Positions 35,796 to 37,411 of a DNA stretch of 48,567 bases are shown here, in pieces (positions within the stretch are counted from its first letter, which is position 1; every line of letters begins with the position of its first letter). A model generated the notes under the pieces. The model was not told the DNA's origin, ran no database searches, and saw nothing but the letters and a program-made list of their open reading frames with translations. Source of the DNA: a bacterium (GTDB lineage: Bacteria; Patescibacteriota; Minisyncoccia; Minisyncoccales; UBA10102); contig JAUYMI010000021.1 of NCBI GenBank assembly GCA_030698665.1, positions 1-48,567 on the forward strand. The letters run 5' to 3'. The position numbers and the translations under genes were made by a program.

Positions 35796-36293
35796 ATGGC
35801 ATTTCTCCAAACACAAACGGTACAGACCATCATTCTTATCCTCAAAATCCTGTCGTTGACGAGCGCGCTCGGGATGCTCGCTTTCATCATCTTCATTATC
35901 CTGAGAACCCAGTGGATTCGTTTTCGCATACTCTTTGACCTTAATGAGTTCTTCACCTTCCGTCCGTATGGGGTAAGGCGCGTGACAAAGGCCTGGGAGA
36001 AGCTCCAGGGCCGCCTTGGTTCTGCCAATGAGTCTGAGTACAAGTTGGCGGTCATTGAGGCTGACCGCATGCTTGATCAGACCTTAGAGCGTCTCAATAT
36101 CCAGGGAGAGAATCTCAAAGAGCGTCTTGCTGCGACAACCGCCGTCGTGGTACCGAACATACAGGAGGTGACTGAGGCGACGCAGATTCGTAACAACATT
36201 GTCCATGACCCCGATTACCGCCTCTCGCTTGCTGAAGCGAGGAAGGCGCTCTCTGCGTACGAAGAGGCCTTCCGGCAGCTTGATTTGTTGTAG
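35796..36293 (+). CDS. Conserved membrane protein of unknown function (coiled-coil C-terminus)
   Basis: N-terminal TM; FRPYGVRRVTKAWEKLQGRLGSANESEYKLAVIEADRMLD. Confidence 0.6.
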   Translation: MAFLQTQTVQTIILILKILSLTSALGMLAFIIFIILRTQWIRFRILFDLNEFFTFRPYGVRRVTKAWEKLQGRLGSANESEYKLAVIEADRMLDQTLERLNIQGENLKERLAATTAVVVPNIQEVTEATQIRNNIVHDPDYRLSLAEARKALSAYEEAFRQLDLL

Positions 36294-36308
36294 CAAGTTA
36301 GATATACT
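36280..36308 (+). promoter_or_regulatory. tRNA promoter
   Basis: TTGATT (36280-36285), N17, TATACT (36303-36308), about 10 nt upstream of the mature tRNA 5' end. Confidence 0.75.
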
Positions 36309-36318
36309 GCCTGGTGCG

Positions 36319-36389
36319 AGCGGGGTAGTGGAGTAGTACCATACGAGGCCCATAACCTTGAGACGCCGGTGCAATTCCGGCCCCCGCAA
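36319..36389 (+). tRNA. tRNA-Met (CAT), initiator-like with unpaired A1xA72 and atypical D/T loops
   Basis: Cloverleaf: A|GCGGGG / CCCCGC|A acceptor, D stem GTGG/CCAT, anticodon arm CGAGG-CCCATAA-CCTTG, T arm GCCGG-TGCAATT-CCGGC, discriminator A; CCA not encoded. Confidence 0.8.
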
Positions 36390-36468: not shown

Positions 36469-37140
36469 ATGGCAAAGTCAGTTGAAAAAAACGAGGCCTT
36501 ATTCTTACGAAAGAATGGAAAGAGCATTAAAGAAATTGCTCAAAAAGTTGGGGTTTCGAAGAGTAGTGTTAGTCTTTGGTGTCGTGATATTGTGTTAACG
36601 AAAAAACAAATCGGAAAACTTCAGGCGTCCATGAGAAGAGGGAGTTACATTGGAAGGATGAAGGGGGCACGGACACAGTATCAAAGACGCATACGATTAA
36701 CCGAAAACTTGGAAACTACAGGGAGGACAATGTTGGGTGGTGTATCGGAGCGGGATATGTTTATGATGGGTGTAGGTCTATATTGGGGTGAGGGAACGAA
36801 ATTCGGACGCCAGGTTTCCCTCGCTAATTCGAACCCAGCGATCATTAAGTTTTCTATTGGTTGGTTCAGAGAAGTATGGGGAGTCACAAATGACAGGTTT
36901 AAGTTTTATATATTCATAAACGAAATACATAAGAATAGGATCAATGAGGTCGAACAGTTTTGGAGAAAAGTTGTAGATGTTTCAAATCCGCATTTTGGGA
37001 AAACTATATTAATTAAAGCTAAGAACAAAAAGAAGTACGCAAACTTTTCCACTCACTTTGGGACACTGCAAGTCCGCGTTGCACGCCCAAATGAGATTCA
37101 CCAAAAGATTATGGGAATACTACATACCTTTGAAAAATGA
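36469..37140 (+). CDS. N-terminal HTH protein with LAGLIDADG-like C-terminal region (putative homing endonuclease-like/mobile)
   Basis: HTH: RKNGKSIKEIAQKVGVSKSSVSLWCRDIVL; C-terminal MFMMGVGLYWGEGTKFGRQVSLANSNPAIIKFSIGWFREVWGV; AT-rich relative to flanks. Confidence 0.55.
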   Translation: MAKSVEKNEALFLRKNGKSIKEIAQKVGVSKSSVSLWCRDIVLTKKQIGKLQASMRRGSYIGRMKGARTQYQRRIRLTENLETTGRTMLGGVSERDMFMMGVGLYWGEGTKFGRQVSLANSNPAIIKFSIGWFREVWGVTNDRFKFYIFINEIHKNRINEVEQFWRKVVDVSNPHFGKTILIKAKNKKKYANFSTHFGTLQVRVARPNEIHQKIMGILHTFEK

Positions 37141-37147
37141 GTAGGAT

Positions 37148-37221
37148 GCCGGGGTAGTTCAGCTGGTCAGAACGCCGCACTCATAAGGCGGAAGTCGTGA
37201 GTTCGAGTCTCACCCCCGGCA
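37148..37221 (+). tRNA. tRNA (CAT): elongator Met or Ile2
   Basis: GCCGGGG/CCCCGGC acceptor, GTTC/GAAC D stem, loop CTCATAA, T arm GTGAG-TTCGAGT-CTCAC, discriminator A. Confidence 0.9.
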
Positions 37222-37251
37222 CAAAACTGAATATCCCGTTTCCGCGGACTT

Positions 37252-37326
37252 GCGGGCGTAGCTCAGTTTGGTTAGAGCGCCACTCTGTCACAGTGGAGGT
37301 CGCCGGTTCAAGTCCGGTCGCCCGCG
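37252..37326 (+). tRNA. tRNA-Asp (GTC)
   Basis: GCGGGCG/CGCCCGC acceptor, anticodon arm CCACT-CTGTCAC-AGTGG, T arm GCCGG-TTCAAGT-CCGGT, discriminator G. Confidence 0.95.
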
Positions 37327-37411
37327 CAGATGAATCCCTTGATTTCCCCTTCCCTTTGAGGCATACTGGAGGCCAGTACGTCATGTTCGGTTGCACGGAA
37401 AAGGAGCTGGT

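Follow-up and report, generated by a model that had tools for sequence, protein, structure and literature searches.

The tRNA gene at positions 36319 to 36389 of the window, by which we mean the whole stretch of 48,567 nucleotides that was analysed, very probably encodes the functional initiator tRNA of a Patescibacteria (Paceibacteria/Parcubacteria) genome, with an elbow in which A18 and G55 compensate for each other. The gene folds as a full cloverleaf, obtains 50.7 bits with the Rfam tRNA model (gathering score 29), and is called tRNA-Met(cat) by ARAGORN; the two programs place its end at 36389/90. Its four stems are all intact: AGCGGGG TA GTGG AGTAGTA CCAT A CGAGG CCCATAA CCTTG AGAC GCCGG TGCAATT CCGGC CCCCGCA A. 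The minimum free energy fold of the tRNA on its own favours an alternative hairpin between the D arm and the T arm, and the comparative evidence and the covariance models back the cloverleaf. The features of the locus are the following.

36280..36308 (+): possible sigma-70-type promoter, TTGATT-17-TATACT (consensus match only).
36319..36389 (+): initiator tRNA-fMet(CAU), with A1xA72 and A73, CCA incompletely encoded (ARAGORN, Rfam, orthologs in the order).
36332..36338 (+): D loop AGTAGTA, read as A14 G15 T17 A18 (36335) G19 (36336) T20 A21 (sequence; register from the 7-nt D loops of other tRNAs of the same genome and of relatives).
36344..36360 (+): anticodon arm CGAGG/CCTTG, which has A29:U41 and keeps two initiator G:C pairs out of three, G30:C40 and G31:C39 (sequence; among 135 distinct initiator-type sequences, 106 have A29:U41).
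36349..36355 (+): anticodon loop CCCATAA, with C33 at 36350 and the anticodon CAT at 36351-36353 (sequence; C33 recurs among initiator-type sequences).
36370..36376 (+): T loop T54 G55 (36371) C56 A57 A58 T59 T60, in which UGCAA fits UGNRA (sequence; covariation with A18).
37148..37222 (+): elongator tRNA-Met(CAU), with standard G18/U55 and U33 (ARAGORN, Rfam, tRNA comparison).
37252..37327 (+): tRNA-Asp(GTC), third gene of an fMet-Met-Asp cluster conserved in the order (ARAGORN, synteny).

The non-Watson-Crick A1xA72, the pairs G2:C71 and C3:G70 and the anticodon CAU are initiator hallmarks and therefore identify the tRNA as of the initiator type; both pairs are invariant among 135 distinct initiator-type sequences. 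The cloverleaf, A1xA72 and the GCGGGG/CCCCGC acceptor stem had been recognised in an earlier, sequence-only reading of this DNA, and the Rfam and ARAGORN results agree with it. The same reading had pointed to C33, to the T loop TGCAATT with G55, to a 7-nt D loop and to A29-T41, all of which are present in the sequence. It had also described the D loop as lacking G18G19, which is correct for one of the two residues: in the register set by the 7-nt D loops AATGGTA (tRNA-Lys) and AGTGGTA, G18 is changed to A and G19 is present. The canonical elbow pair G19-C56 (36336 and 36372) is thus retained, while the canonical G18-Psi55 contact is absent by sequence, with A18 and G55 in its place. As for the promoter, which had been considered good, a sigma-70-type match does exist upstream of the gene, but such sites are about as frequent as in shuffled sequence (3 found and 1.7 expected).

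Compared with the E. coli type of tRNA-fMet, the window's tRNA shares CAU, the N1xN72 mismatch, G2:C71, C3:G70, A73, G30:C40, G31:C39 and G19-C56, whereas A18/G55, C33, A29:U41 and U11:A24 stand where that type has G18/Psi55, U33, G29:C41 and A11:U24, and the 4-nt variable loop is a further difference. The A11:U24 pair, which aids formylation in E. coli, occurs in 105 of the 135 initiator-type sequences of relatives.

The genome that contains the window has 572 kb in 29 contigs, is 100% complete by markers and has 44 tRNAs, just two of which carry the anticodon CAT: the initiator at 36319 and the normal elongator at 37148. A search pattern that accepts every CAT tRNA without an intron returned no further one in the 29 contigs, and the AUA codon is served by a tRNA-Ile(TAT). 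Since tRNA-Asn, tRNA-Ser-GCT and tRNA-Ala-TGC were not seen in this draft, its gaps could hide a second initiator; in a relative assembled in a single contig (G022), the same pattern found only one initiator, of the same A18/G55 type, and one elongator. Genes for methionyl-tRNA formyltransferase (Fmt) and TruB are present. Orthologs of the initiator were found in 43 of 60 relatives, and the fMet-Met-Asp cluster is syntenic throughout the order. These observations support the earlier suggestion of a lineage-specific initiator. A search for what that reading had named as speaking against it, a second canonical fMet tRNA together with decay of this locus, gave a negative result: the gene is the sole candidate in both genomes and its deviations are conserved in many relatives.

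Between the initiator and the elongator lies a 223-aa open reading frame (36469-37140, +) that combines an N-terminal helix-turn-helix with a C-terminal domain containing the motif GLYWGEG; its profile gives a weak match to the LAGLIDADG homing endonuclease I-DmoI (E 0.0036; Foldseek probability 0.96, E 0.16). Homologs in several relatives occupy the same place between the two Met tRNAs or lie just upstream of the elongator, and their 3' ends abut or overlap the tRNA start; most relatives have no homolog. Paralogs in the same genome (L026:1688-2350 and L006:812-1510, on C23 and C1) are found directly upstream of tRNA-Arg(TCT) and overlapping the start of tRNA-Val(GAC). In this genome, the ORF thus belongs to a gene family that lies next to tRNAs and is possibly mobile.

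The changes at positions 18 and 55 go together. In the window's genome, T54-G55-C56 occurs in exactly three tRNAs (fMet, Pro-CGG and Cys-GCA), the same three that have A18. Among 461 distinct tRNAs in the loci first compared, many of which had been selected by an A18/G55 pattern, all 142 with G55 have A18, all 297 with U55 have G18G19, and 17 with C55 also have GG at 18-19. The comparison was repeated with patterns that admit each of the four combinations, in genomes drawn evenly from the class, where the counts are of genes and not of independent evolutionary events. For initiators, sampled in 34 families by fixed patterns that take only those ending the D loop in RGTA and with set spacings, there were 47 A18/G55, 20 G18/U55 and 0 mixed genes; one extra G18/U55 match among the 68 obtained is an elongator and was left out of the 67. 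The corresponding numbers were 17, 60 and 0 for tRNA-Cys and 2, 59 and 0 for elongator tRNA-Met, so that neither A18/U55 nor G18/G55 was seen in about 200 genes of the three surveys. Some tRNAs that had appeared to be G18/G55 turned out to have A18, their D loops being AGGTAGTTA or AGGAGTC. Both states exist within single families, in three for initiators (f183, f189 and f1, the window's own) and in six for tRNA-Cys (f42, f176, f177, f188, f194 and f198); in f189, the sequences of two genomes (G449 and G371) differ, over the compared stretch, only at positions 18, 22, 55 and 57. The coexistence of both states in the same families and the absence of mixed genes indicate that the change is coupled and recurrent: by sequence comparison, positions 18 and 55 switch together, repeatedly, in three tRNA families.

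A genome-wide scan found the A18/G55 initiator in at least 113 contigs. Among the matches listed, these are overwhelmingly from Parcubacteria (Zambryski-, Staskawicz-, Giovannoni-, Nealson-, Wildermuth- and Portnoybacteria, and others). Other classes of Patescibacteria have some as well. Outside Patescibacteria, A18/G55 CAT tRNAs were seen in Euryhalocaulis caribicus (L149, contig 31) and in an Acidobacteria metagenome-assembled genome (L118). The former was rejected as a case of replacement, since that genome also has a canonical-looking CAT tRNA, and the latter was set aside, as it may be an elongator (its 31:39 is A:U). Patescibacteria also have a further T-loop variant, T54-C55-C56 with G18G19, in their tRNAs for elongator Met, Asp and Thr (L098, L113, L115, L148, L156, L167 and others), and the window's genome has a low-scoring tRNA (38.2 bits; C23:31714-31786) whose anticodon loop is enlarged and hard to read (GAAA) and whose T loop has C55.

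In the genes compared, A18/G55 is enriched in initiators and not exclusive to them. The proportions in draws from the same class (47/67 for initiators versus 17/77 for Cys and 2/61 for elongator Met) would fit an initiator-favoured adaptation that goes beyond a neutral compensated swap, in which modification enzymes or the initiation machinery would recognise A18/G55 as an identity or anti-identity element; we regard this as quite unlikely, since reversals to G18/U55 occur inside families and tRNA-Cys often has A18/G55 too. It is highly improbable that the gene is a pseudogene, or a decaying dispensable copy in which the loss of consensus at 33, 18 and 55 reflects relaxed constraint: three of the most conserved tRNA positions do deviate and few tRNAs of the genome obtain a lower Rfam score, but this is the only initiator candidate, its stems are all intact, many relatives conserve the same deviations, and the changes at 18 and 55 are coupled, unlike random decay.

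Staphylococcal non-proteinogenic tRNA-Gly has GUGC in the T loop, a likeness that the sequence-only reading had noted when it suggested a specialised tRNA or a loop change that avoids EF-Tu; our literature search on staphylococcal GUGC tRNAs, which covered few subscription papers, found no paper. Apart from this motif, that tRNA-Gly differs in its Gly anticodon, its cell-wall role and in not being an initiator, and a similar function for the window's tRNA, or evasion of EF-Tu through the elbow, can hardly be credited: the initiator hallmarks are present, no other initiator was found, tRNA-Cys, tRNA-Pro and some tRNA-Met that act in elongation have the same A18/G55 elbow, which is therefore not confined to initiation and is compatible with elongation, and the N1xN72 mismatch already explains initiator behaviour (PMC7949028).

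We thus return to a functional initiator with a compensated elbow, for which a structural basis can be proposed. In the normal elbow, residue 18 is inserted between 57 and 58, in contact with 55, and residue 19 pairs with 56 (PMC4810234); in UGNRA lonepair triloops, the G commonly contacts an outside A, which gives a composite GNRA tetraloop (PMC2258182). The stretch U54-G55-C56-A57-A58 of our T loop matches the UGNRA consensus, the unpaired A18 covaries with G55, and A57 is present in 45 of the 47 A18/G55 initiators of the class survey. A18-G55 would then replace G18-Psi55, with G19-C56, U54-A58 and G15-C48 kept, and A18 may supply the outside A of the UGNRA lonepair triloop, so that G55-C56-A57 and the intercalated A18 would form a composite, GCAA-like loop of the GNRA type. 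Such a loop would keep the L shape without TruB (Psi55) or Gm18 acting at positions 55 and 18, and it would account for the absence of single changes. Like other fMet tRNAs, the window's tRNA is predicted to receive methionine from MetRS, to be formylated by Fmt and to start translation in the P site. The proposed motif resembles the UGNRA (type R1) lonepair triloop/T-loop of the TPP, FMN and AdoCbl riboswitches (PMC2258182) in its U-G-N-R-A stretch, its U-A closing pair and the contact from G to an outside A, corresponding to T54-G55-C56-A57-A58 and A18; it differs in lying in the tRNA elbow, with position 56 still paired with G19, and in that its geometry is deduced here from the consensus. 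An extended version, unlikely though conceivable, is that A18-G55 constitutes a second natural class of tRNA elbow, the composite GNRA loop, selected in Paceibacteria initiators either for freedom from Psi55/Gm18 or for being read by a reduced initiation machinery.

The two deviations of the anticodon arm are separate matters. C33 is found in 39 of the 135 distinct initiator-type sequences, in several lineages and with either elbow state, and is therefore independent of the elbow. According to PMC7949028, three consecutive G:C pairs in the anticodon stem are highly conserved across the domains of life; however, the full set (29-31:39-41) is present in only 7 of the 68 class matches, and A29:U41 is the rule. 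As the window's tRNA also lacks the full set, it is filed as a variant initiator on its other features and on orthology. C33 and A29:U41 are separate lineage changes, probably tolerated because an initiator goes straight to the P site, with no A-site decoding through EF-Tu, which would relax the constraint on U33. The occurrence of C33 in vertebrate initiators, mentioned in the sequence-only reading, is in line with eukaryotic initiators, which also carry C33 (PMC9023262). The eukaryotic tRNA-Meti has A54 and A58 and keeps G18/Psi55, and C33 seems to have arisen here independently of it. A literature search on C33 in bacterial initiators, which covered few subscription papers, returned nothing relevant. 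In three relatives, the anticodon loop of the initiator is interrupted by group I introns (Rfam RF00028; L075 in G024, L085 in G041 and L077 in G058).

Although initiator tRNA itself is well known, the coupled A18-G55 variant of the elbow is apparently undescribed: our search found no description of A18-G55 in tRNA or in initiator tRNA of CPR bacteria, and, as it covered few subscription papers, a prior mention is possible. The G18-Psi55 contact is regarded as part of the near-universal tRNA core, and here it is replaced across a class, mostly in the initiator, by a recurrent, coupled double change. A18/G55 is thereby a natural experiment on how tertiary contacts of tRNA evolve and on the purpose of Psi55 and Gm18. 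On the composite-loop view, these tRNAs would do without both by their sequence. The change also affects tRNA finders, with which A18/G55 genes score low. Because the same initiators have lost the full three G:C pairs and recurrently carry C33, Patescibacteria can serve to test which features an initiator tRNA truly requires.
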